DNA of 60,397 nucleotides. It comes from Desulfobacteraceae bacterium (GTDB lineage: Bacteria; Desulfobacterota; Desulfobacteria; Desulfobacterales; Desulfosalsimonadaceae). The position numbers and the translations under genes are program-made. The stretch covers positions 1-60,397 of the forward strand of contig QZJS01000098.1 in the NCBI GenBank assembly GCA_003597945.1. The letters are read 5' to 3'. Shown piece by piece: positions 9,031-45,112 of the stretch. How positions within the stretch are numbered: position 1 is the first letter of the stretch; each line of letters starts with the position of its first letter. The notes under the pieces were generated by a model. That model was not told the DNA's origin and did no database searches. It saw only the letters and a list, made by a program, of their open reading frames with translations.

Positions 9031-9138
9031 CAGCTCTCCTTTTGGGTATCAAGCCCCGCTTCAGCGCGGAGCAAGGATTAAAAAATACTTCACTTCCGTT
9101 GTAAAAATTATCTTAATTAACTCCTCCGGTGATCCCTG

Positions 9139-9660: not shown

Positions 9661-9903
9661 TTTTTCCCTTTATTCATGTATCCGTCGTCACGATTCCTTG
9701 TTCGGTTTGTCGCCACAGCATTCAAAATTGGGTTAAGGAATGATCATTTGCGCACCGGATATATATCAGATGAGAGTGGATGTCAATTTTTGGATTTCAG
9801 AGCGGCCATAACGGATCCTTAACCAAAGCCGCAGTTGCATTATCATTGTTAATAGGATAAATATTATAAAAATATCCGAATAACTCATCTTGAGTAGGAT
9901 CTC

Positions 9904-23759: not shown

Positions 23760-23879
23760 CTTGCTTTTAAAAGTTGGGCGCATAGATTCTTTTAAAAATT
23801 GAAACAATATGATAAAAGAGTCCGCACCAAACGCAAAGAACCGACCAAAGACCGCATTGTTCTGGAAAAGGAACCTGGA

Positions 23880-25376
23880 ATGGAATCGACCGAATCCAAA
23901 ATTCTTGAGATGATCCGCAAGGGCGAAGGACTCGATCTTGAATTCAAAGCCTGCCGGAACCAGCTCAACCGGGATGCCTATAAAACGGTTTGCGCCTTTT
24001 TGAATCGACATGGCGGCACCTTGCTTCTCGGTGTTCAGGATAACGGCGAAGTCCAGGGCATCGAGCCGGATGCGGCGGCGCAAATCCGGAAAGACTTTGT
24101 GACGGCCGTCAACAACCCGCAGAAGATCACCCCGCCCACCTATCTGGCGATAGATGAAGTCGTGGTTGACGGTAAACCGCTGCTCCGCGTCTATGTGCCG
24201 GAAAGCTCCCAGGTGCATCGCTGCAATGGTCGCATTTACGACCGCAACGAAGACGGCGATCTGGATATCACCGATCACACCGCCCAGGTGGCGCAGCTTT
24301 ATCAGCGCAAGCAGGTCACTTACAGCGAAAACATGGTGTTTCCCCATCTGGGACTTGATGACCTGGATCGCGATCTGATTGCCAGATGCCGCAAGACCGC
24401 TACCCTGCGTTGGGAAGATCATCCCTGGAAGGACCTGGACGATCTGGAGCTGTTGCAAAGCGCCCAACTTTACCAGACCGACTCGGAAACCGGAAAAAGC
24501 GGCGTCACCCGCGCCGGGATTTTGCTGCTGGGAAAGCAGTTGCCGTTGTTGCGGACCGTGCCGCACCACCGCACCGACCTGATTCTACGCAAGGTGAATC
24601 TTGACCGCTACGACGACCGGGATTTCGTGGATGTCAATCTGGTGGAGAGTTATGAGCGGATCATGGCCTTTATTCACAAGCACCTGCCTGATCCTTTTTA
24701 CCTGGAAGGCACGACCAGTATTAGCATCAGAGATGCCATCTTCCGGGAGGTGGCGTCAAACATCCTGATTCATCGGGAATACACCAACGCTTTCCCCGCC
24801 AAGCTGATCATCGAGTACGGCCAGGTCCGCACCGAAAACAGCAACCGCCCCCACGGCTTTGGCCGTCTGGACCCTGAAAACTTCACCCCGTTTCCGAAAA
24901 ATCCGGTAATTGCCCGGTTTTTCCGCCAGATCGGCCGGGCCGATGAGCTGGGGTCCGGAATGCGTAAGATGATGAAGTACAGCCGAGCCTACGGTGGTGA
25001 TGATCCGGAACTGGTGGAGGGTGATGTCTTCAGGATGGTCATACGAGTGCCCGAGTTTGGCGAGAAAACAGTACCTGAATCCCAACAAGTACCCAGCAAG
25101 TACCGGACAAGTACCGGACAAGTCACCGGACAAGTCACCGGACAAGTGGCGCCATGGATTAGCAAAGTACTTTCCGCGTGTGTTGAGCCGAGAAGCAGTG
25201 CTGAAATTCAGATGCTTACCGGCATGAAGCACCGCGAAACATTTCAGCGAAACTACCTGGACATGCTTTTGAAAGACGGTCTGATCGAAAGGACCATACC
25301 AGATAAACCCCGTAGTCGCCACCAACGATACCGAACTACGGCAAAAGGCAAGAAGATTCTGGAGAGTATTCAATGA
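23880..25376 (+). CDS. Schlafen AlbA_2-type ATP-binding/transcriptional regulator-like protein (AlbA_2 + HATPase_4 + wHTH)
   Basis: GEGLDLEFKACRNQLNRDAYKTVCAFLNRHGGTLLLGVQDNGEVQGIEP; C-terminal ELGSGMRKMMKYS; wHTH after a TGQVTGQVTGQ repeat linker. Confidence 0.85.
   Translation: MESTESKILEMIRKGEGLDLEFKACRNQLNRDAYKTVCAFLNRHGGTLLLGVQDNGEVQGIEPDAAAQIRKDFVTAVNNPQKITPPTYLAIDEVVVDGKPLLRVYVPESSQVHRCNGRIYDRNEDGDLDITDHTAQVAQLYQRKQVTYSENMVFPHLGLDDLDRDLIARCRKTATLRWEDHPWKDLDDLELLQSAQLYQTDSETGKSGVTRAGILLLGKQLPLLRTVPHHRTDLILRKVNLDRYDDRDFVDVNLVESYERIMAFIHKHLPDPFYLEGTTSISIRDAIFREVASNILIHREYTNAFPAKLIIEYGQVRTENSNRPHGFGRLDPENFTPFPKNPVIARFFRQIGRADELGSGMRKMMKYSRAYGGDDPELVEGDVFRMVIRVPEFGEKTVPESQQVPSKYRTSTGQVTGQVTGQVAPWISKVLSACVEPRSSAEIQMLTGMKHRETFQRNYLDMLLKDGLIERTIPDKPRSRHQRYRTTAKGKKILESIQ
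25096..25146 (+). repeat. coding tandem repeat (11/12-nt units, aagtaccggac / aagtcaccggac)
   Basis: aagtaccggacaagtaccggacaagtcaccggacaagtcaccggacaagt read directly. Confidence 0.85.
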
Positions 25377-26683: not shown

Positions 26684-28059
26684 GTGAAAAAAGCCGACCT
26701 GCTTGCTGAAATCGCCTTGGGTGAAGACAGCACGCGCCAGTTTAAAAAAGATATCCGCAACGGCGAATCGCTGGCTTCGGAGATGGCGGCTTTTGCCAAT
26801 GCCGAGGGCGGAACGATTTTTATCGGAGTGGATGATGACGGCTCAGTTCCGGGCCTTGAGCCGAAGGATGTCGCACGGATCAATCAGCTTATCAGCAATG
26901 CGGCCAGCCAGCTTGTGCGCAGCCCGTTGGCCGTGCAGACGGAAATGTCGCGGTCAGAAAGGCCCGTGTTGTCATCAGGCTCATGGTGCCCAAAGGCCTC
27001 GATAAACCCTATTTCGATAAAAACGGAGTGATCTGGTTCAAGAGCGGTTCGGATAAACGCCGCATCAACTCCAAGGAGGAACTGCGTCGCCTGTTTCAGT
27101 TTTCCGATCAGTTTCATGCCGATGAATATCCCACCCGGGCGGATATCGGCAAACTCGACAAGCTGCGCTTTCGTGATTTCCTCCGCGATTTCTACAAACA
27201 GGACTTCCCCGACGATCCCGACGAGTTAAAACGTCTGCTGCGGAATATGAACCTGGCCGATGAAGCGGGTTTTCTGTCGCTGGCCGGCGTGCTTCTGTTT
27301 GCCGAACGACCAGAATGGATCAAACCACAGTTTGTCATCAAGGCCATCCGCTATCCGGGCAACGACATTCATGTCAGCGATTATCTGGACACGGAGGATT
27401 TTGATGGACCGCTGCGCCGGATGTTTGACAATGCCCTGGCCTTTGTCATGCGCAATCTGCATAAAATTCAGGCCGGCCGCGGGGTGAATGCGCCGGGGCT
27501 GCCTGAAATTCCAGAGTCGGTTTTTGAAGAACTTCTGGTAAACGCGTTGATCCACCGCGACTATCTGGTCAGTGCGCCCATCCGGCTGTTTATTTTTGAT
27601 AACCGGATCGAGATCATCAGCCCCGGCCATCTGCCCAACAACCTCACGGTTGAACGGATTCGAGCCGGAATTTCAAATATCCGCAATCCGATTCTGGTTT
27701 CCTTTGTGGCCAAAGGGCTTCTACCCTATCACGGGCTGGGTTCGGGCATCAAACGCGCATTGGAGGCCTGGCCCGACATCGAGTTTACCGACGATCGGGA
27801 CGGATGCCAGTTCACCGTAACGGTTCATCGAAAGAAGGCGAAAGGTTCGGGGAAAAGTTCGGGGAAAACAGAAAATCAAATCATTGTTCTGCTCTCAGAC
27901 AGACCGAACCTGACGATTCCGGAACTGTCTGAAACCCTCAATATTACTACGCGAGCGGTTGAAAAACAAATTTCAAAATTACGCATGGACGGCCGCCTGC
28001 GCCGCATCGGCCCCGCCAAAGGCGGACACTGGGAAATCATTGAGAAGGATGAGAAGTAA
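26684..28059 (+). pseudogene. AlbA_2-type ATP-binding protein split by a 1-nt frameshift near 26942
   Basis: MKKADLLAEIALGEDSTRQFKKDIRNGESLASEMAAFANAEGGTIFIGVDDDG in frame 1; continues as VIRLMVPKGLDKPYFDKNGVIWFKSGSDKRR in a second frame; adding one A at ggaaatg restores one ORF. Confidence 0.8.
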
Positions 28060-28567: not shown

Positions 28568-28597
28568 CAGGGGTTGCTCCAGATAAAGGAGGCTGTT

Positions 28598-29515
28598 TTG
28601 GCCAAGCACGATTACGACCGGGCCATGTATCGCATCACCACGATTGTTTCCCGCCTGAACATCGGGGAACGGCTGTTTCTGCCGGATCTGGCAAGTGAAT
28701 TCGGCGTCAGCCTCCGCACCATCCAGAAAGATTTTTCCACCCGGCTGGCCGTATTTCCCATCATCCGAAACAGCGACGGCAGTTATTCCTTCATGGGCCG
28801 CTATCGCCTCAAAGGCACGGCCAATGCCGAGGAAAGCATTGTGGTGGAACTGATGGGCGCCCTGGCGGAACAGGTCAATGCCGGTTACGCCGAAGTCACC
28901 CGCCGGCTCTTAAGCGGAGCGGGCTATTCCAACCGCACGTTTGCCATTCATCTGAAATTCGAGGATATATCCGCCCACCTGGATACGTTTTACCTGCTCA
29001 AACAGACCATCCAGTTCCAGCAGAAAATCCGTTTCAGCTACACCACCCGGCATGGGAAAAAAGACAGCTATCTGGTCGATCCCTACCGCCTGGGCAATTT
29101 CGATGGGTTCTGGTATCTCATCGCCATGGATAACAAGGCCGGCATTCTCAAAACGTTTTACCTGAAAAGCATCGAGAATATCCGGGTCTCGCCGGAAAAT
29201 TACGCCATTGATTCGGCCCTGGAAAAAGAAATTGAAGAGACCTACGGCAACCTGACCACCGCCTGGTTCAAGGAAGAAAAGCAGAACGTCAACCTGCTGG
29301 CCGCGGGCGCAGCGCGCCGCTACATCATGCGCAATCCGGGTCCTCAGATAGCGATCATCAAGGATGCCCCGGATGGCCTGCATCTGCAAATGACCTATCA
29401 CCGGGATGTTGAAGTGCTCTATTTCGTCAAACACTGGCTGCCGGATATCCGGATCATCGGCAACCCGCATCTCAAAAAGATGCTGATGGATCAGATTAAA
29501 AATTATTCCGGGTAA
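28598..29515 (+). CDS. WYL-domain transcriptional regulator
   Basis: N-terminal HTH FLPDLASEFGVSLRTIQKDFSTRL; WYL core KIRFSYTTRHGKKDSYLVDPYRLGNFDGFWYLIAMD; TTG start assumed. Confidence 0.85.
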   Translation: MAKHDYDRAMYRITTIVSRLNIGERLFLPDLASEFGVSLRTIQKDFSTRLAVFPIIRNSDGSYSFMGRYRLKGTANAEESIVVELMGALAEQVNAGYAEVTRRLLSGAGYSNRTFAIHLKFEDISAHLDTFYLLKQTIQFQQKIRFSYTTRHGKKDSYLVDPYRLGNFDGFWYLIAMDNKAGILKTFYLKSIENIRVSPENYAIDSALEKEIEETYGNLTTAWFKEEKQNVNLLAAGAARRYIMRNPGPQIAIIKDAPDGLHLQMTYHRDVEVLYFVKHWLPDIRIIGNPHLKKMLMDQIKNYSG

Positions 29516-30188: not shown

Positions 30189-31205
30189 ATGGTGAGGCTG
30201 TTGATATTTATGGATGAAGAGATTTTAAGGGCTGATCCCCATTCAAAAAGAAAAAAAATTGCGATAGCGATATTTGTCGGCGTTATAGGTCTTCTGGCAA
30301 TTGTTGCATTTCTGATTTTCGGCTTATTGGTAAAAGACTATATCATCTTTGATGCAAATAGAATTCAGGCTGCCAATGAATTAACTATGCTTAATTCTCG
30401 TATTAAAGAGATGGAAAATCGACTTTATGAGCATCGGGCCTCCTTATCATCGCAACTGAAAACAGGAAAAGATCAGCTTCAAGAATTGGATGAACTCATT
30501 CATAAACGCAATGCTCAAATAGACTCCCAACAAAGATTGATTGCCGAGTACGATGAATTAATGAAAAAAATCGACTTGGCAAAGAAGGAATACCAAAGCA
30601 CGCTGGGAGATATAAAGTTACTTCGTGAGAGTGCGGCAAAGGAAATGGGTGTTATTACAGCACTCAAAAAGGAAAACGAAATACTTGAAGCCCAAAAGTC
30701 GGCGCTTAATAAAGAATTGGCGGAACTCGATAAGGCCAAAAAAAGTAGCAATCAGTCCATTGAAGACCTTGCTCGTCAACTAAGGGACCTGAGTGGAAAA
30801 GAATCCATCGCCAGGGCCGAATTTTCAGAATTACAGGAAGCTTTGACAGAAACTTCCGCGAATCTGGCTATACAAAACAATAAGATTGAGAGCGCGCGAA
30901 GATCTCTATCCATATTGGAACAAGAAATCAGCGAAATGAAATTGAATCATGACACTCTCTCGGCTCAAATTATCCTTGCCCAGGAAACCTTCACAACCAG
31001 AACGGCTGATAAGGAAAAATTGATTGCGACAGTTTCTGGACTGACACAAAAAAAAATAGAACTCTCCTCGGAAATTGCATTGCTGGAAGAACGTAAGCTT
31101 GGAATGGAATCCCAAACAAAGGCATTGGATATCAAGATTAAACAAACCAACGAGCGCCTGCAGGCAATAAGTCAGAAAGTTGAGACGGATAAGGCCAACG
31201 ATTAA
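30189..31205 (+). CDS. single-TM, long coiled-coil protein (first gene of putative CoCoNuT-like operon)
   Basis: TM IAIFVGVIGLLAIVAFLIFGLLV followed by ~270 residues of heptad-like coiled coil; 5 nt from the next gene. Confidence 0.75.
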   Translation: MVRLLIFMDEEILRADPHSKRKKIAIAIFVGVIGLLAIVAFLIFGLLVKDYIIFDANRIQAANELTMLNSRIKEMENRLYEHRASLSSQLKTGKDQLQELDELIHKRNAQIDSQQRLIAEYDELMKKIDLAKKEYQSTLGDIKLLRESAAKEMGVITALKKENEILEAQKSALNKELAELDKAKKSSNQSIEDLARQLRDLSGKESIARAEFSELQEALTETSANLAIQNNKIESARRSLSILEQEISEMKLNHDTLSAQIILAQETFTTRTADKEKLIATVSGLTQKKIELSSEIALLEERKLGMESQTKALDIKIKQTNERLQAISQKVETDKAND

Positions 31206-31210
31206 AAAGG

Positions 31211-33145
31211 ATGGTAAACCATTTGAACACGCCAATCTATTTTTATCTTACCGGAATTTCTTTTGTTACAATTTTGGTCATCGTTCTGTGTTTATCTGTT
31301 TACTATTACATCAAGGCAAAAGATATTGCACCCTTCCTTCTGCGCCTTGAAGATTTGCAGAGAAAGATTGCCGAAGCACAAACTACACTTGAGGAGACCA
31401 AAAGGGAGTTACGTGACAAGCAGAACGAAATTGCCAAGGCGGACAGACTGATCGCTGAAGGGAAAATCGCTGAGCAATGGCTGGCCAATAACAGTTCACA
31501 GATTGCGGTTTTACGGATCGAAATTGACAAGCAGAAAGCAAGATTACAAGAGGCCACTGAAAATTATCAAAAACGGCAGGAAGAGTTAAACGAACTGACC
31601 CAACGGGTATCTGACAAGCATGTTGAAATTAATGCCGCGACGGAAATAAAAAACACTTTGGACATCGAAGTTTCTAAATTAACAGCGGATTTAAATTCTA
31701 TTAAGGATTTAATCGCGCAAAAAACAAAACAGGAAAACGAATTAACGGACAGTATCACAAAACTTCAAAGTGCCAAAAACCAATGGGAGGCGAAAGTCCG
31801 GGATTTGATAAATCAAGCCAAGTTGCTTGAAAAACAGTTGGAAGAAAACACATCTAATCTTGATCAAATTAAAGATGAACTCGGTAAGACAAAGAAAATA
31901 TTGGCAACAACAGAAGGTCAAGCGCTGGCTGCTGAAAAAACGCTCGCGCAATTGGCTAAAACTCAGGAAATAGACAAAGACCGCTGGAAGGATTTGGATA
32001 GAAAATTTATTCAGAAATCGCAACCTTTAAACGCATCAAATTTGGTTGAAAACGACTGGCTGGAGGAGTTCATGGGCTCGTTGCGTCAACACGGGTTTAT
32101 TTTTAATGAGCGGGCTATTCTATCTTTCCATACAGGCTTGAAATGTGCCAAAATTTCCCCCCTGGTTGTCTTGGCAGGGATTTCCGGTACAGGAAAAAGT
32201 CTGTTGCCTGAACTCTATGCCGCCGCTTTGGGCATGCACTTCTTGCCTGTTGCGGTACAGCCGCGGTGGGACAGTCCCCAAGACTTGTTTGGTTTTTATA
32301 ATTACATGGAAGGACGGTATAAGGCGACGGAATTATCCCGCCTATTGTGGCAGTTTGACAAATACAACAATCAAAATGCGAAGCAACTCTATCAGAAGCG
32401 GATGCCCATGAACCTTGTTCTGCTGGATGAAATGAATCTGGCTCGGGTGGAATATTATTTTTCCGATCTGCTAAGCAAACTTGAGATACGCCATGGGCTG
32501 GATCCAGAGAATGATATGAGCAGAATAAAAGCGGAAATCGAGATCGAGTGCAACGCCTCAGCTCAAGATAAGCAGACTCGGCGTTTGTTTGTTGCCCTGA
32601 ATACGCTCTTTATTGGCACGATGAACGAGGATGAAAGCACTCAGACCCTTTCCGACAAAGTAATTGACCGCTCCAATGTCATTCGGTTCGGTCGTCCAAA
32701 GCGACTCGCGGTTACTCCTAGCAAAGAAAGGTTCTTTGAAAAATGGACGCATATAGAAGGCATTACTTTTCAAAATTGGACAGACTGGTGCAAGCCGAAC
32801 CAAGACCTAAGGATTCGAGAAGAACTAAATAAAACATTGTGGGAAATAAATGGGATTTTGGCGGGAGTCCATCGGCCATTCGGCCATCGCGTCAATCAAG
32901 CTATAATACAATATGTTGCCTGCTATCCCGGCGATTATAATAAAGCGCTTGCCGACCAAATCGAGATGAAAATTCTGCCCAAGCTTAACGGGTTAGATAG
33001 CCAAGTAAACGGTTTTGACATTGCAATGACGGCAATCGAAGGTATTATTGGTGGGTTGGATGATAGTGAATTGCATGAGGCATTCAAGGAGTCAAGGGAG
33101 AAAGCCGCTGATTCTTTTTTCAAATGGCGCGGTGTGATGCGATAG
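31211..33145 (+). CDS. TM + coiled-coil + McrB-like AAA GTPase
   Basis: N-terminal TM; coiled coil; LAGISGTGKSLLPELYAAALG, VQPRWDSPQDLFGFYNYMEGRYK, NLVLLDEMNLARVEYYFSDLLSKLE, and McrB-type IGTMNEDES. Confidence 0.9.
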   Translation: MVNHLNTPIYFYLTGISFVTILVIVLCLSVYYYIKAKDIAPFLLRLEDLQRKIAEAQTTLEETKRELRDKQNEIAKADRLIAEGKIAEQWLANNSSQIAVLRIEIDKQKARLQEATENYQKRQEELNELTQRVSDKHVEINAATEIKNTLDIEVSKLTADLNSIKDLIAQKTKQENELTDSITKLQSAKNQWEAKVRDLINQAKLLEKQLEENTSNLDQIKDELGKTKKILATTEGQALAAEKTLAQLAKTQEIDKDRWKDLDRKFIQKSQPLNASNLVENDWLEEFMGSLRQHGFIFNERAILSFHTGLKCAKISPLVVLAGISGTGKSLLPELYAAALGMHFLPVAVQPRWDSPQDLFGFYNYMEGRYKATELSRLLWQFDKYNNQNAKQLYQKRMPMNLVLLDEMNLARVEYYFSDLLSKLEIRHGLDPENDMSRIKAEIEIECNASAQDKQTRRLFVALNTLFIGTMNEDESTQTLSDKVIDRSNVIRFGRPKRLAVTPSKERFFEKWTHIEGITFQNWTDWCKPNQDLRIREELNKTLWEINGILAGVHRPFGHRVNQAIIQYVACYPGDYNKALADQIEMKILPKLNGLDSQVNGFDIAMTAIEGIIGGLDDSELHEAFKESREKAADSFFKWRGVMR

Positions 33146-36100
33146 CCATGGACGAACGGAGCGTGATAGAGTTACGGGCATACCTGCGCAAGGTTGATCC
33201 CGAGCCTGATGCTGCGATTGACTCTTTTCGGGAACAGGTAGATATTATATTCAAACTGCGCATTGAGGCCGAAAAAAACTTTAAGAACAATCCCCATATT
33301 GCTAAAAGCAAACGAAAAGCACTGCCGCTTGGATGGCCTGCTATTACTCAAATACTTAATCCTAGTACAATGGCGCCGCCGGAAAAACTCATAACACAGA
33401 TTTCACGGGAATGTTTTAACGAGACAGACGAAATCATTCGCAATATGCGAAAGATTCTGACACGCGAACGGGAAAAGGTTTCGTTGGGATTGGTTCAGCA
33501 GGTTGATCCCCATTGTCTGCGTTGGTTGTCCAAGCAGCCTGGTTATAATGCGATGGAAAAGGCTGGTGCAAAGCAGCGGATTCTTGCAATAGTCAGGCGT
33601 GAGAATTTTAACACCATAGAAAATCGAATTTTTAAAGATTACCTGAAACGAACCAAACAAGAGGCAAGATTCTATTTGCGCGTTAATGGTAAAAAATTTC
33701 CAAACCATGAAGCAATCAAACGGGTAGCGAGACTTGAACGTCTCTGTGAAGAAGGGTTTCGCGATCCAATAATGGAAGGAATCACTGCGATTCAGGAACT
33801 TCCGATTCCAAATTATGTTTTGCGCCAAGAACGGAGATATTCGAAAATTTGGAAGGCCTATTGCGATCTTATCCGCCAGTCCGACATCGCGGAAAAGTTA
33901 TGGTTACGGCGCACAGAATTAGCGGTAACTCTGGAAAAACTTCGCTTAGAAGCCAAGGTACATGCTGATCCGCGCGCAAAATACCACAGTCCTATCTGGT
34001 TTAATTACTTGGACGGAAAGCACAATTTGCTGGAAAAGCCTTTTTATAAAAATGAGTTAATGAGTGCGGCCCACCAGAAATTCTTATCTTTCAAAAGAAA
34101 CCAAAATAAAGAGCCCGTCTTTCACCAGGATAATGTCATCATTGACTTGACCGGCAAGGAACCTTCTCGCGATTTGTTGATTTACGGCTGCCATGAAAAT
34201 GCCAAACCTTATCTTCAGGATTATAAAAAACCCTCCATCGAGAATATCAAGGCCGGCGAGCATTTTTTTCTGAACGACCTCTTGCACAAACATGACAAAA
34301 AAAACAGTCTTCTGCATTCGAGACTTCGTGATTACTTTGAACAGCTTTTCGCCCACATCGGCGGAAAAAATTGGCTTATACTTGTACCGGACGATTGGGA
34401 TGCGCTCTGGCAAGAAACGATTATAAAATCTATACCGCTTCCACGAAATAAGGTCTTCCTTTTATGGCGAAGCGTCGCAGCGGTCATCGGGATCATCAGC
34501 CATTTAGAAGATCCCCGTGAGAACGACACTGTCGTCATTGTTGATATTCAACAAGGCGGGATTGTCAGCATGAGTAAGCTGACGCTTGCGCTATGTGAAA
34601 ATGGGAATAGCCTGATTCCTCAAAGAAAGTCCTTTATCCGCCATCCCCAAAGCTATGCAAAGATAGTACTTTCTGTTAACGGTCCCATTCCAAAGCGAGA
34701 TGCTTTTCTGTATGGGAAAAAGTCGGATTATATATTGTCCCCGGCTGACATAACTGTAATAAATGCCTTTGCGCACAGGGCGAAGCATGTTGTCATTGTA
34801 AACAACAGTGGAATCAAAATCCCGATTTCGAAATGGCATATCACGGCAGGGGAACTGCTTGAAAGAGGCGCAAAACAGTTTATTACCCAAAGGGACAGGG
34901 GCCAGATTGCCTATTATGATGAACTGGAGGCGCTGTCACTTGTTGTCCAAACTGAGGATGAACGGATTCTTGCTAAGCCGCTGGTCGAAGCCGATGAAAA
35001 GTCGCCGGGAGGAAAAGAGATTGTCACGAAAACCATCAAGCGGGCGGCTGTCCTCAAGCGCGAGTCAGATTACGTAGATCTTGTTTTGTGCATGGGAGAG
35101 GCAACGCCCGACACATCGCTAAAAATCAAACGCCATGAATTTAATAAAAGCCTTATTGAAGACCATGCGATTGATTTGTCCGCAAGAATGACGCCTGGAC
35201 AGGGAATGGCAGTGGTAACGGTCACGTCCGACTTCTTGCGAAAACCGATTGAGCTGGATTTCCTCCATGGCATGACGGACAAAGACCCGAAGGGCCGAGC
35301 GCTAACGATGTCATCCCTCGAAAATGAGATGGAACGCAGTTTCCCTCCTGATTCACCGGATGTCATAGCCGATGATTTATTGTGGGCAGGTGTAAGGGAT
35401 CAAGTGGATGCTTACATGAAGGATCTGATATCGCCGGATGGGAGTTGGTTTGCAAAAGCACAAAGAATCTACCTCGACGGAGCGCCTCTGCCCAATCGGA
35501 TAAGTCCATTGGAACGACTGCGCAGGAAAAATGTATTCGGCAATGCTCCCGCACACCGTTTTCCATCGTTAGTTCAAGGAATTTTTGGTTTACTTGGGCA
35601 ACAGTTTAACTTTGAAGCCCTCTTCCAAAAGTTGGCCAGCGGGTATAATGGGCCTGATCATGCAGCCGTCATCCGGCTTATTGCCTGGACTTATGCATCA
35701 AATGAACCGGCTTTTGATCACATTCGGCGGCAGACGGTGAAACATGTTTTTGAATATGCGCAGGGTGCTACCTCGATAGCACCACTTCATCAGGAGATGA
35801 CGATTTGCGCGAATCTATGCGTCTCGCGAAATGAATGGCGTACATGCCTGAAAGCAATTGAGTATAGAGTAAAAGATTACAATAATAATGTTAGTCGAGA
35901 TTTTTATTTGCTTTATAATTTGCTGCAGTTCCATCCGTCGATTCTCAAAGACACCGGTTATTTTCAAAATGACGGCTGTTGGAAGATCGTGAAGCATATC
36001 CCACACTGGTATCACACTCATCGCCAAGGCACTGTCGCTATCGGATATATTCTGAAAAGCATTTTGTATTTTCTCAGATGCCGTCGATTTGACGGAAAGA

Positions 36101-36252
36101 AATTCCTCACCAGAGAATACGACCCCGAGCACTATGCAATTATCGCTGAATGCCTTAACTATTCGGTGCATCGGTCCCATGAGAAATTGCGACGGCTGGT
36201 CATCGAATATCTGAACAATAAAGGCACCATTGACGGATTACCCGTGGACTAA
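33124..36252 (+). CDS. DUF2357/McrC-N-like protein with apparent Hsp70-like (ASKHA) region
   Basis: McrC/DUF2357-like signature NFNTIENRIFKDYLKRT; later WLILVPDDWDALWQETIIKSI...VVIVDIQQGGIVSMSKLTL and GAKQFITQRDRGQIAYYDELEALSLVV, Hsp70-like; overlaps previous gene. Confidence 0.65.
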   Translation: MARCDAIAMDERSVIELRAYLRKVDPEPDAAIDSFREQVDIIFKLRIEAEKNFKNNPHIAKSKRKALPLGWPAITQILNPSTMAPPEKLITQISRECFNETDEIIRNMRKILTREREKVSLGLVQQVDPHCLRWLSKQPGYNAMEKAGAKQRILAIVRRENFNTIENRIFKDYLKRTKQEARFYLRVNGKKFPNHEAIKRVARLERLCEEGFRDPIMEGITAIQELPIPNYVLRQERRYSKIWKAYCDLIRQSDIAEKLWLRRTELAVTLEKLRLEAKVHADPRAKYHSPIWFNYLDGKHNLLEKPFYKNELMSAAHQKFLSFKRNQNKEPVFHQDNVIIDLTGKEPSRDLLIYGCHENAKPYLQDYKKPSIENIKAGEHFFLNDLLHKHDKKNSLLHSRLRDYFEQLFAHIGGKNWLILVPDDWDALWQETIIKSIPLPRNKVFLLWRSVAAVIGIISHLEDPRENDTVVIVDIQQGGIVSMSKLTLALCENGNSLIPQRKSFIRHPQSYAKIVLSVNGPIPKRDAFLYGKKSDYILSPADITVINAFAHRAKHVVIVNNSGIKIPISKWHITAGELLERGAKQFITQRDRGQIAYYDELEALSLVVQTEDERILAKPLVEADEKSPGGKEIVTKTIKRAAVLKRESDYVDLVLCMGEATPDTSLKIKRHEFNKSLIEDHAIDLSARMTPGQGMAVVTVTSDFLRKPIELDFLHGMTDKDPKGRALTMSSLENEMERSFPPDSPDVIADDLLWAGVRDQVDAYMKDLISPDGSWFAKAQRIYLDGAPLPNRISPLERLRRKNVFGNAPAHRFPSLVQGIFGLLGQQFNFEALFQKLASGYNGPDHAAVIRLIAWTYASNEPAFDHIRRQTVKHVFEYAQGATSIAPLHQEMTICANLCVSRNEWRTCLKAIEYRVKDYNNNVSRDFYLLYNLLQFHPSILKDTGYFQNDGCWKIVKHIPHWYHTHRQGTVAIGYILKSILYFLRCRRFDGKKFLTREYDPEHYAIIAECLNYSVHRSHEKLRRLVIEYLNNKGTIDGLPVD

Positions 36253-36254
36253 TT

Positions 36255-39200
36255 ATGAAACTTGAAGAATTCCTTGGCATCTGGCAGCTCACGGCAAAGA
36301 AACGGAGTGTTTCCATTGGCTATACCGCGTTATGCCGAGAGATTGAAAAGCTTGATCCGGGGGAAATTGGCTATAAGGTGATTAGGCGTTTGGAGGACGA
36401 GGGTTTCATTTCAACCTTGCCCAACGGCCACCGTATTCTGACTGATTTAGGTCTTTCCAAAAGAATTCCTTTACCCGTCCGCCCAGTTGTAATTGAAAAA
36501 AGCAATGAACAGAACTGGGCAAGGTTCAGAAGGCTCTGTGTATATTATGCGGATTGCGTTACCCAGTCGGAAAAAACGCAAGAATATCTTTTTCAGAAGG
36601 ATTTGAACACCAAATATCTACTACCCCGATTGCCGATTGACTGGTTAAGCAATGACGATTCAATGCGACTTGCTTTCAGCAATTTGGAACGTCCGGCGGT
36701 TAATCGCATTAAAAGCCGCAGTGATGACGCCGAAGATATCTATATTGGATATCCGCTAAGCGCGTTTCACGATTCGCGCAATCAAATGGTATTTTCACCG
36801 ATCCTGCTCTTCCCGGCGGATGTGACTTTTGACACGACAAGCCTTGAAGTGACAATCCGGCGCGATGAAATCGACATTAACCGAACATGGCTGGAATACA
36901 ATGTTCCCCGTGACGACCAAAAGGACGTTCTTACAAGTATCTGTTTCTCTGCGGGAGATAAAACCGGGCTTTTGGATGCGGAGGTCGCTGTCCGGTATCT
37001 GGCCAATCGATTTAATGCCGATTTGGTCCCGAATCATCTTGATTACAATGTGACTCACCGCCCCAGAGGCATTGTCAACTCCGCCACATTGTTTGTTGGC
37101 AATCCATTGAAATACAGCAAGACGTTGAAAAAGGAACTGCGTGAAATCAGCAATCAACCGCCACATGTATTGGATCAGACAGCACTATCATATGTGTTCC
37201 GAGATCCTCCACTGGAAAATCAATATGAAATGAACCCATATATCGTTCCACTTGATTTTCTGGAAATGCCGTCCAACTACGAACAGCACGAAGCACTTAA
37301 ACAGGCCCTGAACCTGCCGGTTTCCAAAGTGACCGGACCGCCAGGAACCGGCAAATCGCAGGTTGCGGTGAACCTTATCGCGAACTTGGCTTTTTATGGC
37401 CAATCAGCACTGTTCACCAGCAAGAACCACAAGGCAATTCATGCGATTATTCAAAGGGCGGAATCTATAATGCCGAAATTGCCCTTGATGCAATTCTGCA
37501 CAACGGAAGACGGCTCCGCAGGCGCGGTTTGGTCAAACTTGCCTATAGATTTTGTGATTGCGCAAAGCGAGGTTATCAAGCAACAAAAGGGTTTCACGGA
37601 TGATTTTCCTCTCATGCGAAAATTTGAAGACTCGTTGGAAAATTTGTGTGATTTTGAGATGTTGTTTGCCGAAATTAATGATGCTCGCTTGGCGTTGCAG
37701 AAAATTCAGGCAAAGTATGATCAAATTTTTCCGAATATTTCGGTGCCGCTGGATACTTTATCCGTGGATTATTGCCAGCAACTTGAGAAACTATCGAACC
37801 GGATCAGCCTGGATCAAGACACGCGAACTTGGATACAAAGGGTTTTTGATTTTCTGTTTCTGCGCCAATATCGAGCGCATAATGCGGAGGTGGAGTTAAG
37901 AAAAATATTGCCGGAAATTTCAGCAGCAGCAAAGAATCCGGAGACATTGCGTAAACGCGTATTACGGTTATGTGGAGATATCGCTGATTATTTGGCGATC
38001 AAGGATGAAGAGGCTTTGCTTTATGAAAAAACATTGACACTACCGGAGGATGACCTTAAACGACTGGCGGAAGAAATAGCTTTCCGGCGTAAGCATCTGG
38101 GTGATATATTTTTAGCTAAACGCGTTTTTGCGATAAAAGACGTCCCCGATAATATTCGACAACAACTCAAAGATGCCTCGCAACGAATCGCCCGCCAAAA
38201 TCTTCCGTTCTTAGCACAAGTACTTCCGGTTTCCAGTATTGAAGAGGCCCAAGATTCATTCAAGCAGTTTGCAAATTTTTTCCCTGCGTGGGCGACGACA
38301 TTGTTGTCGTTGTCAAAAGCATCACCATGCGTGGCCGGGCTGTTCGAAAGAGTGATTATCGATGAAGCCTCCCAGTGCGAAATCCCTCCAATCATTCCCG
38401 CCCTCTATCGCGCTAAAGGCATGACAGTTATCGGTGACCCTGCTCAATTTCCGCCAGTTATTACCATGCGGGAAGCCCGCCATGCCCACATCCGATTCTT
38501 TAAGCATAAATTAACCGATTTGTCGGACGAACGATTTGACTTCATGAAACATAATGCCTTTGATGTCGTTGCAACTCATCCTCTGATGCTTCGCGAACAT
38601 TTCCGCTGTCACGCGGACATCGCTGATTATTTCAACGAAGAATATTACACAGACAAATTAAAGGTAAGAACTCATCCGGGAAGCCTCAAGTTTCCACGCA
38701 ATATGGGATTTCGCAGGGCGCTGGAATGGCGAAACGTTCATGATTCAATGGAAGATGAGATCGCTGAGGTTAAAAAATTAATGCAAGACCTGCGGCAAAA
38801 TCAATATGATGGAAAGATTGGTGTTATCTCTCCATTCCGTAAAGTGGCGGATAGGCTAAAGCAAGAACTTTATAATTACCAGCCCCTGCTTGATGTGGAA
38901 AAAGATGTTAATACCGTGAACGGGTTTCAAGGAGGCGAAAGAGATTTAATCGTCTTTGTCCTGGGGATCACGAGTAAATTGACAAGAGGCGAGGATTGGT
39001 ATGCCGTGGCGGAGGAAAACAGGTACATCTATAATGTAGCCGTGAGCCGTGCGCGGGCCTGTTTAATTGTTATTGGTGACCGGGAAAAGGCCCGTCAATC
39101 AAAATCTTCGGCCTTGCGGAATTTGGCAAAAGATATTGAACAGCGCCCACGAAAAACTTTATCACAATCACCTGGTGAAGAGATGATGTACAAAGCTCTT

Positions 39201-39467
39201 TGCGAGGCGGGCTTCGATCCCAAACAGCAATATCCTTTAGTCGGACGGTATCTCGATTTAGCGCTTGTGGATGAAAAAATTGATATTGAGGTTGATGGAG
39301 AAGGTTTTCATCTCAACAAATTTGGCGAACGTAAGCATGATGATATTTACCGTGACCTGCAAGTAACTTCAGTCGGATGGCGTGTTTGCAGGTTTTGGTA
39401 TCGGGAAGTCCGCGATAATCTTTCTGATTGTATTGAAAAAGTACAACAGACAGTAAAAAATCACTGA
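36255..39467 (+). CDS. SF1 (UPF1-like) helicase with C-terminal Vsr/DUF559-like nuclease domain
   Basis: VTGPPGTGKSQVAVNLI, RVIIDEASQCEIPPIIPALYRAKGMTVIGDPAQFPPV, VNTVNGFQGGERDLIV, YNVAVSRARACLIVIGD; C-term SPGEEMMYKALCEAGF...GRYLDLALVDEKIDIEVDGEGFHL. Confidence 0.9.
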   Translation: MKLEEFLGIWQLTAKKRSVSIGYTALCREIEKLDPGEIGYKVIRRLEDEGFISTLPNGHRILTDLGLSKRIPLPVRPVVIEKSNEQNWARFRRLCVYYADCVTQSEKTQEYLFQKDLNTKYLLPRLPIDWLSNDDSMRLAFSNLERPAVNRIKSRSDDAEDIYIGYPLSAFHDSRNQMVFSPILLFPADVTFDTTSLEVTIRRDEIDINRTWLEYNVPRDDQKDVLTSICFSAGDKTGLLDAEVAVRYLANRFNADLVPNHLDYNVTHRPRGIVNSATLFVGNPLKYSKTLKKELREISNQPPHVLDQTALSYVFRDPPLENQYEMNPYIVPLDFLEMPSNYEQHEALKQALNLPVSKVTGPPGTGKSQVAVNLIANLAFYGQSALFTSKNHKAIHAIIQRAESIMPKLPLMQFCTTEDGSAGAVWSNLPIDFVIAQSEVIKQQKGFTDDFPLMRKFEDSLENLCDFEMLFAEINDARLALQKIQAKYDQIFPNISVPLDTLSVDYCQQLEKLSNRISLDQDTRTWIQRVFDFLFLRQYRAHNAEVELRKILPEISAAAKNPETLRKRVLRLCGDIADYLAIKDEEALLYEKTLTLPEDDLKRLAEEIAFRRKHLGDIFLAKRVFAIKDVPDNIRQQLKDASQRIARQNLPFLAQVLPVSSIEEAQDSFKQFANFFPAWATTLLSLSKASPCVAGLFERVIIDEASQCEIPPIIPALYRAKGMTVIGDPAQFPPVITMREARHAHIRFFKHKLTDLSDERFDFMKHNAFDVVATHPLMLREHFRCHADIADYFNEEYYTDKLKVRTHPGSLKFPRNMGFRRALEWRNVHDSMEDEIAEVKKLMQDLRQNQYDGKIGVISPFRKVADRLKQELYNYQPLLDVEKDVNTVNGFQGGERDLIVFVLGITSKLTRGEDWYAVAEENRYIYNVAVSRARACLIVIGDREKARQSKSSALRNLAKDIEQRPRKTLSQSPGEEMMYKALCEAGFDPKQQYPLVGRYLDLALVDEKIDIEVDGEGFHLNKFGERKHDDIYRDLQVTSVGWRVCRFWYREVRDNLSDCIEKVQQTVKNH

Positions 39468-39696: not shown

Positions 39697-40302
39697 ATGA
39701 AGAAAATGACTGCCATTGATTATTACCGTACCCACTGGGCGCAGTACCACGACAAAACTATCAATATTGACCCGGCCGGTTTTCTCTCCGGGTTTGTCAG
39801 GCATCTTCGGCATGGCGATCACGTTCTCGACGTCGGGTGCGGTTCCGGTCGGGATCTGCTGTGGCTCAAACAGCGGGGATTTTCCGTTACCGGATTCGAC
39901 GCGTCGCCGGGATTGGCGGAACTGGCCCGCCGTCATGCCGGCTGTCTCGTGATCGAAGGTGATTTCGAAACCTTTGATTTCCAGGCTCTGAGCGTTGACG
40001 CCGTCCTGATGTCCGGTTCTTTGGTTCATCTGCCTCACGACCGCCTTGCCCCGGCGCTGTCAAATATAGTAAACGCTCTCCGGAAAACCCCGGAAGCAAG
40101 GGTTTATCTGTCTCTCAAGGAAGGCGAAGGTTTATCGCGCCATACCCATAACCGTATCTATTACCTCTGGCAGGATCAGGATATCCGGTCCATCTTTGCC
40201 GATCTCGGATTGACGGTTTTAGAGACTTCCCGTTCGGAATCCGCCAGGGGAACCGGCGAAATCTGGCTTGGCTATATACTGGCGCGGGATAAGAATCCAT
40301 GA
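39697..40302 (+). CDS. class I SAM-dependent methyltransferase (no DNA-MTase catalytic motif seen)
   Basis: HVLDVGCGSGRDLLWLKQRGFSVTGFDASPGLAELARRH; 4-nt ATGA overlap with next gene. Confidence 0.85.
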   Translation: MKKMTAIDYYRTHWAQYHDKTINIDPAGFLSGFVRHLRHGDHVLDVGCGSGRDLLWLKQRGFSVTGFDASPGLAELARRHAGCLVIEGDFETFDFQALSVDAVLMSGSLVHLPHDRLAPALSNIVNALRKTPEARVYLSLKEGEGLSRHTHNRIYYLWQDQDIRSIFADLGLTVLETSRSESARGTGEIWLGYILARDKNP

Positions 40303-43300
40303 CAGATGATCTCAAAAACAAGGCCATCATTTATCAGAAGCTGGTGCGGGATCGCATTCCGGAAATTATCCGGAATCAGGGCAAGGCGCCTTATATCCGC
40401 AAAATTGAAGGCCCTGCGCTTTGCAAAGCGATCAGTGAAAAAGTGATCGAAGAAGCATTTGAGCTTTATACCGAACTGCGAGGCGAAAACCGGAATGCCG
40501 TGCTCAAGGAATCGGCCGATCTGCTGGAAATCGTGCTGGCGGCGCTTGAGGTGCATGGGTTTACCCTTGATGATCTGCTGGCCCATGCGGAAATCCGGCG
40601 TCAGGAACGCGGCGGGTTTGCGGAGCGCATTTTTCTCGATCAGGTGGGCGGCGGCGAACTCTGCGAAATCGAATTTCAGAAATATCCGGCTTTCGTTTTT
40701 AATCCGTTTGCCGGCGGCAAGCTGATTCACATTATTCGAACCGAACTGGCGCACAGCACGTCTGCCTGGATCGCATCGGCCTTTTATTCGCCGGGGGCCA
40801 CCAATCTACTGCTGGCGGAGATGACGAAATTTTTAAAGGCCGGCGGTTCGATGAAACTGCTGCTGTCGACAATGGGGAACATTACAAAACCAGAATATCT
40901 TGAGCATCTGATAGCGCAGGTGCCCGAACAGTGCGTCAAGGTATTTCATCCCCCGGATCTGGCCTTTGATAACATCCCTCCGCATTTTCATGTCAAAGCA
41001 TGGCTGTTTGAGCATACGGACGGGCAGGGCGCCATGATTATCGGTTCATCCAACCTGACCCGGGGCGGCCTGGTCAACAATATCGAGTGGAATTATTTTT
41101 CTCCGCGTGAAATCAACATCATCTATGATCGCCGCGAATCTCCCTTTCAATCCGCCGTAACCGAATTTGAGCGCATCTGGGAAAATGAGTCCACGGCGGT
41201 TACCGGCGAATTTTTAGCGGCCTATCGCCGCCGCCGGCCGGTGCTCAGCGACTGGGCCGTGCCGGATCAAGAGACGCCGGAACTTTTTAACCTGCAGGAA
41301 GAATATGGAAAAGCGGTTTCTTTTGCGGCGCCCAATGACGCGCAGAAAGAAGCCCTGGAAAATCTGGCGGAACAGCGCCGCCAGGGTGCAGCCCGGGCCG
41401 CGGTGGTTGCGGCCACGGGACTTGGCAAAACCTATCTGGCGGCCTTTGACTATCAGCGGAGTAACTGCCGGAGTCTTTTGTTTATCGCCCATCGCGAAGA
41501 TATTTTACGCAAAGCCCGGGATACGTTTCGTCATGTGACGGGCGATCCGTCTTTCGGCGCGATGCTGGGCCGGGGGAATACAGAGACCAGCGGCTCCGAG
41601 GCGGTGTTTGCCATGATTCAGACCCTCAGCCGGGCCCGTCATCTGGACGGCTTTCTCGCCAGAGATTTCGAATATATCGTCATTGATGAATTCCATCATG
41701 CCGAGGCCGCCAGTTATCAGCGCATTTTATCCCATTTTCAGCCGAAATTCCTGCTGGGCCTGACCGCCACGCCGGAACGAATGGACGGCCGGAGCGTGCT
41801 GGCTTATTGTGATTACAATGTGGCCTATGAAGTCCGGGTGCTCGAAGCCGTCAACCGGGGGTGGCTCGTGCCGTTTCAGTATTTTGCCATCTACGATGAA
41901 ACCGATTATGAGCAGATCCCCTGGCGGGGCACTTTTTATGACGAAGCCGCCCTGGATCAGGCCCTAAAGAATGACACCCGCACGGCCATTGCCGCGGCCA
42001 ATCTGAAAAAATACCTGCCGTCAACCGGTAAAATCAAGGCCCTGGCGTTCTGCAGTTCGGTCAGCCACGCCCGCTATACCGCGGAAAAACTGACCAGGGA
42101 TCACCAGCTTCCGGCGGTTGCCCTCTGGGGTGAAACGCCGGATGATGACCGGCATAATGCCATGGATCGTCTGCAAGACGAATCCGATGCACTGAACGTG
42201 ATCTGCACGGTGGATCTGTTTAACGAAGGCACGGACATCCCCGCGTTAAGTCATGTGCTGTTTTTGCGGCCGACCCAGTCCTTTACGCTGTTTCTCCAGC
42301 AGTTGGGCCGGGGCCTGCGGAAACATCCGGCCAAGGATTTTCTGGTGGTTCTCGATTTTGTCGGAAACTTCCGGAAATCCCATATCGCGCCCCTGGCCCT
42401 TTGCGGATACAGCTCTCTGGATTCGTTTGAAAATTTGAAACCGGCGATAGTGCGGGAAACGCTTGAGCAACGGCTTCCGGACGGGTGTTATGTCAGCGCG
42501 GATATCGAGGTTCAGCGGCTGTGGGATGCCGAGGTGCGGCAGATCATGGATAAACATCTGCCGCTGGCCGATCGCCTCAAGCTGGTTTATCAGGACATCA
42601 AGCAGGATCTTGGACGGGAAACCCCGCTTGAACTGTCGGATATGCTGTCCAATGCCAGTGGTGTTGATCCGTATTTGTATCTTAAAACCTTCGGAAGCTG
42701 GCTTATCGCCAAAAAGGAATGCGAAAACGGCAGGCTCTCCGACAAGGAAGCGCAATGGCTGAACACGCCGGGAGATTATCTGCTCCGCCACATTGAGACG
42801 GGCCTGAATCCGGTCAAATCATACAAAATGGTGGTTATCCTGGCCCTGCTCAAGCTGGAGGGGACGACCTGGAAAGCGGACGATATTGCGCGGGAATTTC
42901 TTGGGCATTATCTGGCGCATCCGGATCAGATCGCCGATTTTGATGCCCTGGCAAAATCACCGGAACCTGAAAAATTTCGGATCTCTGATGTCGTGGCGCA
43001 CCTCAAGCGTATGCCCCTGGATAAAATGAGCAATGCGGAAACCGACTGTTTTATTCTCGACAGCGCAGCCAATACTTTTCAGCTCAAACCCGAATATGTG
43101 CCTTACTGGCAGGACCCGTTTTTCCGGGCCCTGGTCAAGGACCGGGCGGAATTTGTGCTGGCCCGGTATTTCCTGCGCAAGCGCATGCAGGATACCATCT
43201 ATTTCAGCGAATCCATATTTTCAGAAGGCTTTCCCGTGAGCCGCAGGCTTGTGGAAGCATGTTGTGAAATCCCCCCGTCGCCGGGTGAAAAGCGCCCGCT

Positions 43301-43499
43301 AACCATGCGGATTGATAAACGGAACTTCAACGCGGATCTGGTGCGGGACGCGGTGGGAAATTATAAAATCGCCTATACTGAGGATAGCCCTATTGCCGGG
43401 TTTCTCCGAAAAACGCTGAGTCCCGCACCGGAAAAAGATGCAAAAATATTCCGGCTGCAGGCTGAAAACGATTATTTACGGCTTGCCGTGATTCAATAA
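40299..43499 (+). CDS. MazG/PRA-PH-like NTP pyrophosphohydrolase - PLD nuclease - SF2 DEAD/DEAH helicase fusion
   Basis: YQKLVRDRIPEIIRNQG...EKVIEEAFELY...ESADLLEIVLAAL; HFHVKAWLFEHTDGQGAMIIGSSNLTRGG (PLD); AATGLGKTYLAAF, VIDEFHHAEAASY, LTATPERMDG, QQLGRGLRKHPAKDFLVVLDFVGN. Confidence 0.88.
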   Translation: MTDDLKNKAIIYQKLVRDRIPEIIRNQGKAPYIRKIEGPALCKAISEKVIEEAFELYTELRGENRNAVLKESADLLEIVLAALEVHGFTLDDLLAHAEIRRQERGGFAERIFLDQVGGGELCEIEFQKYPAFVFNPFAGGKLIHIIRTELAHSTSAWIASAFYSPGATNLLLAEMTKFLKAGGSMKLLLSTMGNITKPEYLEHLIAQVPEQCVKVFHPPDLAFDNIPPHFHVKAWLFEHTDGQGAMIIGSSNLTRGGLVNNIEWNYFSPREINIIYDRRESPFQSAVTEFERIWENESTAVTGEFLAAYRRRRPVLSDWAVPDQETPELFNLQEEYGKAVSFAAPNDAQKEALENLAEQRRQGAARAAVVAATGLGKTYLAAFDYQRSNCRSLLFIAHREDILRKARDTFRHVTGDPSFGAMLGRGNTETSGSEAVFAMIQTLSRARHLDGFLARDFEYIVIDEFHHAEAASYQRILSHFQPKFLLGLTATPERMDGRSVLAYCDYNVAYEVRVLEAVNRGWLVPFQYFAIYDETDYEQIPWRGTFYDEAALDQALKNDTRTAIAAANLKKYLPSTGKIKALAFCSSVSHARYTAEKLTRDHQLPAVALWGETPDDDRHNAMDRLQDESDALNVICTVDLFNEGTDIPALSHVLFLRPTQSFTLFLQQLGRGLRKHPAKDFLVVLDFVGNFRKSHIAPLALCGYSSLDSFENLKPAIVRETLEQRLPDGCYVSADIEVQRLWDAEVRQIMDKHLPLADRLKLVYQDIKQDLGRETPLELSDMLSNASGVDPYLYLKTFGSWLIAKKECENGRLSDKEAQWLNTPGDYLLRHIETGLNPVKSYKMVVILALLKLEGTTWKADDIAREFLGHYLAHPDQIADFDALAKSPEPEKFRISDVVAHLKRMPLDKMSNAETDCFILDSAANTFQLKPEYVPYWQDPFFRALVKDRAEFVLARYFLRKRMQDTIYFSESIFSEGFPVSRRLVEACCEIPPSPGEKRPLTMRIDKRNFNADLVRDAVGNYKIAYTEDSPIAGFLRKTLSPAPEKDAKIFRLQAENDYLRLAVIQ

Positions 43500-43552: not shown

Positions 43553-45112
43553 GTGACTTTTTTCATGTGCAGTCAATTGAAAGCTGATTATCCCATCCCA
43601 TTTCCGCGCTCTTATTGGGTTATCCCCGGTGTTTTTCTGGCCGGGGAGTTTCCCGGATCAAAAGCCGCCGGTAAGGCCCGTCAAAAACTTAAGCGTCTAT
43701 ATGATGCCGGCATCCGGCATGTGATCAATCTCATGGAGCCGGATGAAATCGATCACGACGGCAATCCGTTTGATTCCTATAAAAATGATTTAACAGAAAT
43801 CGCCGAAAAACAAGACGACATTATTTCGTTCAGCCGGTATCCCATCAAAGACCTGCATATTCCGGATTCGGATCAGATGACGGCGATCCTGGATGCCATT
43901 GATGCGGCAATTGAGGCGCATCAGCCGGTTTATGTGCATTGCTGGGGCGGGATCGGCCGGACCGGCACGGTGGTGGGCTGTTTTCTGATCCGGCATGGGC
44001 TGGCCACCAGCCGCAACGTGCTGGATGTGATCCATGGGCTTCGGAAAAATGACCCGAAAAATTATCGCACATCTCCGGAGACATCCGTCCAGGTAAAGTT
44101 TGTCGCCTCATGGCAAAAACATGATGCGGCTCGCCATATCCGGCTGGATCGGTATCTTGGGTGCCTGGCGGGCCTTGCGGCAGGAGATGCGGTGGGGACC
44201 ACCCTTGAATTCAAACTTCCGGGTTCGTTTTCCCCCATTGATGATATGATCGGCGGCGGTCCTTTTGGCTTAAAGCCCGGCCAATGGACCGATGATACGT
44301 CCATGGCCCTGTGTCTGGCGGACAGCCTGATTCAATGCAACGGATTTGACGCGGCGGATCAGATGAAGCGTTATTGCCGGTGGCGGGATCAGGGGTATCT
44401 GAGCAGCATCGGGGAGTGTTTTGATATCGGCGGCACGGTGTCTTCCGCATTGTCGCGGTTTCAGGAAACCGGCGATCCGTTTGCCGGCTCCACCCATGAG
44501 CGCTCCGCCGGCAACGGCAGCATTATGCGGCTGGCGCCGGTGCCGCTGTTTTATGGCGGCCATCCGGAAACCGCCATACAGATGAGCGCGGAAAGCTCGA
44601 AAACGACACATGGCGCCCGGACCTGCATTGATGCCTGCCGGTATTTGAGCGGGTTGATCATCGGCGCGTTAACCGGCGAGTCCAGAGAAACGCTTCTGGG
44701 GCCGCGATACGCGCCGGTAAAAAATCTCTGGGGGGCTGATCCCCTGTGTCCTGAGATCGATGAAATCGCCCGGGGGTCATTTAAAACAAAGAATCCTCCG
44801 GAAATCAAAGGAACCGGTTATGTGGTCCAATCCCTTGAGGCCGCGCTCTGGGCGTTTTACCATTCCTCATGTTTTGAAGACGGCTGCCTGATGGCGGTGA
44901 ACCTGGGCGATGACGCCGACACCACCGGGGCGGTCTACGGCCAGCTTGCCGGCGCGTTTTATGGTTTTAAAAGTATTCCCCCCAAATGGCGGGATATGAT
45001 TGCCCATAAAGACATGATTGCTGATTTTGCGGTGAAATTGTGGCTTTCAACAAACGCTGAAAATAGGTTTTTGAGTGAAAATAAGGCGGCGAGCGGCTCA
45101 ATGCATTCGTAA
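43553..45112 (+). CDS. dual-specificity-type protein phosphatase fused to ADP-ribosylglycohydrolase
   Basis: [17 protein letters not shown] (Cx5R) then [71 protein letters not shown]; start may be downstream, near 43559. Confidence 0.88.

Follow-up and report, generated by a model that had tools for sequence, protein, structure and literature searches.

A probable type III-B-derived CoCoNuT in which CnuC is fused to an Hsp70-like CnuD

Gene content of the locus

The stretch analysed here (the window) comprises 60,397 nucleotides (nt), positions 1 to 60,397 of contig QZJS01000098.1, from the draft genome of a Desulfobacteraceae bacterium (GCA_003597945.1; phylum Desulfobacterota). It carries an operon of four genes in the order CnuA-CnuB-CnuCD-CnuH (Table 1), whose products resemble those of CoCoNuTs, relatives of the McrBC restriction enzyme in which an NxD GTPase signature marks the branch (PMC11090510; statements about this paper refer to its main text). 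The locus is probably a type III CoCoNuT that descends from III-B and whose CnuC and CnuD have merged into one protein. Computation supplied the gene content, the predicted fold, the NxD signature, the want of a nuclease fold at the McrC position, the nuclease borne by the helicase and the placement within III-B.

Table 1. Features of the operon, with positions in the window (gaps between successive genes: 5, -22 and 2 nt; aa, amino acids)
Feature	Position	Strand	Description
cnuA-like	30189..31205	+	338 aa; N-terminal membrane helix, then long coiled coil; ends 5 nt before cnuB
cnuB	31211..33145	+	644 aa; N-terminal membrane helix, coiled coil, McrB-like AAA+ GTPase domain
NxD GTPase signature	32624..32632	+	N472-E473-D474; invariant columns in an alignment with 8 relatives
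cnuCD	33124..36252	+	1042 aa; fusion of CnuC (DUF2357) and CnuD (pseudo-Hsp70 + helical repeats); 22-nt overlap with cnuB
DUF2357 domain	33424..33861	+	residues 101-246; the McrC part that contacts the GTPase in McrBC; Pfam
Linker, short, mostly disordered	33964..34125	+	residues ~281-334; relatives hold an inactive PD-(D/E)xK here
Hsp70-like nucleotide-binding domain and SBD-beta	34126..35283	+	residues 335-720; Foldseek and VIA-align matches to DnaK/Hsp110
Degenerate second phosphate loop	34543..34560	+	D474-IQQGG for D-x-GGGT; alignment
Helical (HEAT-like) C-terminal region	35311..36249	+	residues ~730-1042; helices of the model
cnuH	36255..39467	+	1070 aa; UPF1-like SF1 (superfamily 1) helicase, C-terminal nuclease domain; begins 2 nt past cnuCD
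Vsr-like (MTES_1575/DUF559) PD-(D/E)xK nuclease domain	39177..39452	+	residues 975-1066; MTES_1575 E 7.5e-10

The membrane helix of CnuB spans residues ~5-32 and its GTPase domain residues ~285-640, with matches to Pfam AAA_5 and PADLOC PDC-M26A (E 1.9e-33). SMC-type matches over residues ~45-275 mark the long coiled coil joined to a GTPase that is expected of a CoCoNuT. The signature reads GTMNEDES in the window, and NxD was present in all 84 CnuBs examined (80 loci from genome contigs, the window, L130, L131 and L132).

These 80 loci were kept from a scan of genome contigs with the CnuB alignment. CnuC and CnuD are fused in three of them (L019, L020 and L021) and occupy two frames in 67; the other ten, having no complete CnuC/CnuD call, were left unscored. 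Two further fusions, L130 (genome G921) and L131 (G844), came from 387 genomes of the phylum of L019. With the window, this makes six fused loci, each with a single open frame.

The CnuCD fusion protein

The original prediction, made from the letters of the window, was that of a 1042-aa protein with an McrC/DUF2357-like N-terminus, no apparent PD-(D/E)XK core and an Hsp70-like ATPase region. The open reading frame is present at the position predicted, on the + strand and with an ATG start, and the N-terminus indeed matches Pfam DUF2357 (E 2.4e-9), scoring 37.3 bits where the cut-off is 23.3. No second family was found in a Pfam scan of CnuCD up to E 1.

The protein was modelled with AlphaFold2 from an alignment of 42 rows (mean predicted local distance difference test score, pLDDT, 85.0; predicted template modelling score, pTM, 0.62). 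In the model about 55 residues separate the helices of DUF2357, which end near residue 280, from the Hsp70 fold, which starts at 335, and residues 295-334 of this linker have pLDDT <50. There is therefore no room for a PD-(D/E)xK domain, which agrees with the prediction. A canonical McrBC with a hidden nuclease was considered and rejected, since the model has neither the fold nor the room for one.

Structure prediction followed by a fold search, a check proposed with the original prediction, recovered an Hsp70 core with both nucleotide-binding domain (NBD) and beta-type substrate-binding domain (SBD-beta). Foldseek returned 18 matches in the PDB at E<=1e-3, 17 of them with Hsp70-type titles (DnaK, Hsc70, mortalin, Hsp110, RAC complexes) and the remaining one a chain of a ciliary complex; the best was Mycoplasma genitalium DnaK (E 2.9e-8). 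VIA-align superposed residues 335-720 on DnaK 7krt with Z 16.9 and a root-mean-square deviation of 5.5 Å over 351 residues. The segments that had been quoted for this module fall where they should: VVIVDIQQGG (at 470) forms the strand and loop that make up the second phosphate motif, GAKQF (at 582) is part of a helix of the nucleotide domain, and LKIKRHEFNK, by reading of the sequence, belongs to the beta-rich substrate-binding part. In a fold search of a viral library (E<=1e-3), only viral Hsp70s were found among the named rows, which gave no further lead.

Searches by sequence contributed little. PDB searches with CnuC and CnuCD profiles gave nothing useful, the latter without an Hsp70 match, and the Pfam HSP70 model matches one of the 42 alignment rows (E 6.3e-5). 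With sequence evidence this thin, the Hsp70 assignment rests mainly on the predicted fold. Neither PADLOC nor NCBIfam holds a model for CnuCD. The fused gene is under purifying selection over its full length in L020/L021 (nonsynonymous proportion pN 0.26; synonymous proportion pS saturated).

Nucleotide site of the Hsp70-like part

In Hsp70 proteins the second phosphate loop is DxGGGT and the catalytic Glu lies within EPTAAA. The window reads LWRSVAA at the latter site, and in a sequence alignment both the GGGT loop and the catalytic Glu are missing in 29 of 29 rows, the window included. The phosphate-binding residues, whose inspection had also been proposed, are thus degenerate, and the label ATPase is not supported. 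The same has been said of CoCoNuT Hsp70-like proteins, from which little hydrolysis is expected (PMC11090510).

On these motifs, a non-hydrolysing sensor or adaptor is, by a small margin over even chances, what the pseudo-Hsp70 would be. What tells against this is that hydrolysis motifs alone were read, so that nucleotide binding may persist. A working ATP-driven chaperone acting on phage proteins or complexes, to unfold or disassemble them, would account for the retention of NBD and SBD-beta in the order of DnaK, but we consider it rather unlikely, the GGGT loop and the Glu being gone throughout the alignment and the operon having no gene for a J-protein or a nucleotide exchange factor.

The CnuH helicase-nuclease

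CnuH matches Pfam AAA_11, AAA_12 and AAA_19 in its helicase part, and MTES_1575 and DUF559, both above the Pfam cut-off, in its nuclease. The nuclease residues E975, D1001, E1012, D1014 and H1019 are invariant in six of six aligned CnuH sequences. The N-terminal ~70 residues lie outside any model in a Pfam scan; an N-terminal winged helix-turn-helix on CnuH is among the features of type III-B (PMC11090510). CnuH is probably the only cutting part of the system.

The second half of the original prediction, a chaperone-like domain in the place of the nuclease with nuclease activity moved to the adjacent helicase, is thus borne out as an arrangement by the CnuCD model and the CnuH domain. As an idea it is not new in kind, since a chaperone fold standing in for the nuclease has been published for III-A CoCoNuTs, and a helicase fused to a nuclease for III-B (PMC11090510).

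In 45 of the 55 genome contig loci with a placed CnuH, the gene lies upstream of CnuB. In the window, L020 and L130 a CnuH with Vsr domain directly follows CnuCD; in L021 two other genes precede CnuH, which runs off the contig. The two remaining fused loci speak against CnuH as a constant partner of the fusion. L131 has only broken CnuH pieces (7552-8441, with an internal stop) beside an intact fused CnuCD, and L019 has no CnuH nearby, a search of its genome giving weak matches of <=47 bits in a 1886-aa frame. Given these two loci, CnuH may be dispensable to the fused core, or the loci themselves may have decayed. A separate observation concerns L025 (15611-19822), whose CnuH is 1403 aa long; the Vsr model scores 243 over residues 1013-1400, which suggests two tandem nuclease domains.

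Predicted membrane helices of CnuA and CnuB

In the window, the helix of CnuA lies at residues ~24-48 (30258-30332; hydropathy 3.13 over 19 residues) and that of CnuB at 31223-31306. Domain searches with CnuA gave coiled-coil-type matches only. A helix was scored wherever 19 consecutive residues had a mean hydropathy >=1.6, near-copies being retained in the counts. Of 89 CnuBs, 82 have one within their first 60 residues, and of 77 genes immediately upstream of CnuB (CnuA), 71 have one within their first 180; CnuC and CnuH starts, used for comparison, gave 1 of 169. The four III-A loci are negative in each set, and account for four of the misses in each. The helices are conserved in CnuA and CnuB of III-B and III-C loci.

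Flanking charge was counted after removal of identical CnuBs and of rows below the hydropathy threshold. In 71 of 75 CnuBs the C side has more K+R than the N side, which is short; by this simple reading of hydropathy and charge, the body of CnuB would lie inside the cell. In 56 of 64 CnuAs the N side has the higher net charge (K+R alone 38 against 13, with 13 ties), which suggests a body outside. The word 'transmembrane' occurs six times in the main text of PMC11090510, never about CnuA or CnuB of III-B or III-C.

Relatives and origin of the fusion

The placement of the window was examined in three CnuB trees, rooted by outgroup choice and with III-B reference loci assigned by gene content. 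In a quick tree of 87 rows, from which copies and one cut-off row were omitted (L011-L014, L016, L080, L081 and L083), the window and the fused loci form a clade with support 98 inside III-B. Careful trees of hand-picked sets gave the same result, with support 98/92 for the fused loci at 40 rows and 95/88 for all six at 36 rows. In all three the fused clade stands apart from III-A and III-C. The same grouping appears in the DUF2357 tree (fused loci, 99), and in the CnuH tree the CnuH of the window joins the same III-B set (100).

The next CnuB relatives, from Verrucomicrobiota, Lentisphaerota, Spirochaetota and Bacillota, are split loci whose CnuCs are short: 415-452 aa in eight loci, versus a median of 557 aa in the 60 other split CnuCs. 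McrC was compared on one of these, L023, the VIA list of the whole window protein being filled by its Hsp70 part (333-717). In the model of this short CnuC (pLDDT 84.1) the DUF2357 part matches McrC structures 6ut5 (Z 9.0) and 6hz4 (Z 8.4), while the C-terminal 150 residues give weak matches to the PD-(D/E)xK proteins VC1899 (Z 5.5) and MunI (Z 5.2). Though these Z values are low, the C-terminal part of the modelled protein appears to be a remnant of the nuclease fold. Such a remnant is in line with the inactive nuclease kept by III-B CnuC (PMC11090510). From the fused proteins, by model and alignment, the nuclease fold is gone.

The Hsp70 half is harder to trace. Searched against 395 genomes of the phylum of the window it found only the window itself, and a single-sequence search of six genomes of the same class with III-B loci found nothing; hence the link to the III-B CnuDs needed profiles. 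A CnuD profile of 11 clade members, window included, matched other III-B CnuDs from E 9.7e-32 downward, whereas the III-A CnuCDs L100 and L101 were absent among its 94 matches at E<=10. Among 129 pattern matches in viral contigs there was one relative, a split III-B locus, and among plasmids 22 records matched, none with 80% coverage of CnuCD.

The nesting of the fused clade within III-B, among split sisters with a shrunken nuclease remnant, suggests a second fusion independent of that in III-A, and two separate CnuC-CnuD fusions are the better reading, short of proven. The alternative is a single ancestral fusion, re-split in most III-B and III-C lineages. The least-change count is two, the clade lies among split sisters and outgroups, and the nuclease remnant of the sisters could not have returned from a fusion without nuclease. 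Forcing the fused and III-A rows together is disfavoured by the approximately unbiased (AU) test at 40 rows (p 0.029). Weighing on the other side, the same constraint gives p 0.141 at 36 rows and the root is set by the choice of outgroup only, so that, judged by CnuB alone, the case against one common fusion is not firm. Taken with the remaining evidence, a single fusion seems improbable. If the fusion did arise twice, selection repeatedly joins CnuC and CnuD.

The operon is likely a cassette acquired across phyla, because it forms a low-GC block (G+C content, GC, 0.39-0.46, with flanks of 0.49-0.62) and its closest kin are in Verrucomicrobiota, which holds the CnuB nearest to that of the window (69% over the GTPase domain). 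A flanking gene (12873-15092) has full-length relatives, 46-49% identical, in seven kin genomes.

Directly upstream of the system in L019, the closest relative, where CnuH would stand, there is a TerY-P-like module (4544-9992) with genes for two VWA proteins, a Ser/Thr kinase, an FHA protein and a calcineurin-like phosphatase. TerY-P is described as never found in III-B or III-C (PMC11090510).

Class assignment

In type III-B CoCoNuTs CnuC, with a dead PD-(D/E)xK, is separate from CnuD, CnuA is a coiled-coil protein and CnuH bears a Vsr-like nuclease (PMC11090510). The window shares with them the separate coiled-coil CnuA, an NxD CnuB whose GTPase branches with III-B, DUF2357, an Hsp70-like CnuD with helical repeats, and the Vsr-like nuclease. 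It differs in that CnuC and CnuD form one frame, the N-terminal beta-sandwich and the inactive nuclease of CnuC are lost (model and alignments), and the gene order is A-B-CD-H. The window thus combines a III-B gene set with a III-A fusion trait, and its identity and architecture as a type III-B-derived CoCoNuT are, in our judgement, very likely correct.

This combination is absent from the classification in the main text of PMC11090510, the sections of which on these types contain no fused III-B variant; what is new relative to that text is the III-B gene set with a CnuC-CnuD fusion and loss of the nuclease fold, both of which it gives for III-A only. Among the matches listed in a search for the CoCoNuT protein names, only this 2024 paper and its preprint use them; CoCoNuTs are also mentioned in a 2025 preprint on YprA helicases (PMC12458937).

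The fusion could instead mark a plain type III-A CoCoNuT, in which CnuC is joined to an Hsp70 unit, the nuclease fold and beta-sandwich are lost, and a HEPN CnuE and usually TerY-P are present (PMC11090510). The model of the window does show this fusion, with the Hsp70 unit in the nuclease's place. However, no HEPN, kinase or VWA match was found in the operon and its next neighbours, CnuA is present, and CnuH carries a Vsr-like nuclease, unlike that of III-A. The CnuB and DUF2357 trees place the window in III-B, with a 100/100 branch parting the distant III-A rows in the former, its Hsp70 half fails to match III-A CnuCDs, and none of the four III-A CnuBs has the membrane helix. We therefore regard a plain III-A system as very improbable. 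That an assembly or frameshift error produced the fusion, for which one could cite the 137 contigs of this draft, is refuted by the same one-frame fusion in six genomes.

A VWA gene lies 19 kb from the operon. In Klebsiella and Enterobacter plasmids, III-A CnuCD genes are split by insertion sequences (L018:9794-12361; L102:6764-12771).

The likeness to better-known systems is partial. As in Escherichia coli McrBC, an McrB-like AAA+ GTPase is paired with a DUF2357 partner, but the signature is NxD rather than NxxD, the McrC position holds no PD-(D/E)xK, and the nuclease is on a separate helicase. With Hsp70/DnaK the shared part is the NBD and SBD-beta fold; the nucleotide motifs and the fusion to DUF2357 set CnuCD apart. 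Druantia I/II, named Type IV CoCoNuT in the part of the 2025 preprint that deals with them, also has a CnuB-like coiled-coil protein and a helicase with a C-terminal Vsr domain, but its CnuB and Vsr are inactive and its helicase is of the YprA family, while the window has active motifs and an SF1 helicase (PMC12458937).

Proposed mechanism

An anti-phage role is quite likely. The N-terminal helix of CnuB would keep the protein at the inner membrane, its coiled coil and GTPase lying on the cytoplasmic side. Through its DUF2357 part, CnuCD would bind and stimulate the CnuB GTPase ring, as McrC does with McrB, a coupling that seems just as likely. The pseudo-Hsp70 may serve as a binding or adaptor domain rather than a cycling ATPase and, occupying the position of the McrC nuclease, could bring its ligand, whether RNA, ribosome or unfolded phage protein, next to the ring. 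GTP-driven remodelling would then license CnuH, the helicase feeding nucleic acid to its own Vsr-like nuclease.

The membrane helices allow a more speculative and, as a whole, doubtful extension, in which III-B and III-C CoCoNuTs are membrane-anchored surveillance machines. In it CnuB would be tethered with its GTPase inside the cell, and CnuA would have the reverse orientation, its long coiled coil sensing envelope attack or DNA entry in the periplasm. CnuB and the pseudo-Hsp70 would relay the signal to the helicase-nuclease, and the CnuC-CnuD fusion would hard-wire the sensor domain to the GTPase. Should the membrane helices be confirmed, a branch of the McrBC family moves to the cell envelope and phage entry becomes a testable trigger.

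One clade offers a natural series, from CnuC with an inactive nuclease, through short CnuC with a remnant, to the nuclease-less CnuC-Hsp70 fusion. The series predicts that the Hsp70-like domain takes over the place of the dead nuclease and perhaps its binding role.

Neighbouring genes

Adjoining the operon, 40299-43499 encodes a helicase of 1066 aa that has a PLD-like nuclease region and a MazG/PRA-PH-like N-terminus; it matches PADLOC mREase_IV (E 1.2e-87) and is a restriction-type gene of its own within the same island. It is followed by an ADP-ribosylglycohydrolase joined to a dual-specificity phosphatase domain (43553-45112). Upstream of the operon, a gap of ~670 bp with a small gene separates it from a WYL-domain regulator (28574-29515), which could be a defence regulator. 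Further upstream, a RecG-C-like/HTH (helix-turn-helix) regulator gene appears split (26684-28059), the upstream frame at 26684-27031 resembling, by eye, its missing AlbA_2 part, and a second, SLFN_AlbA_2 gene lies at 23799-25376.

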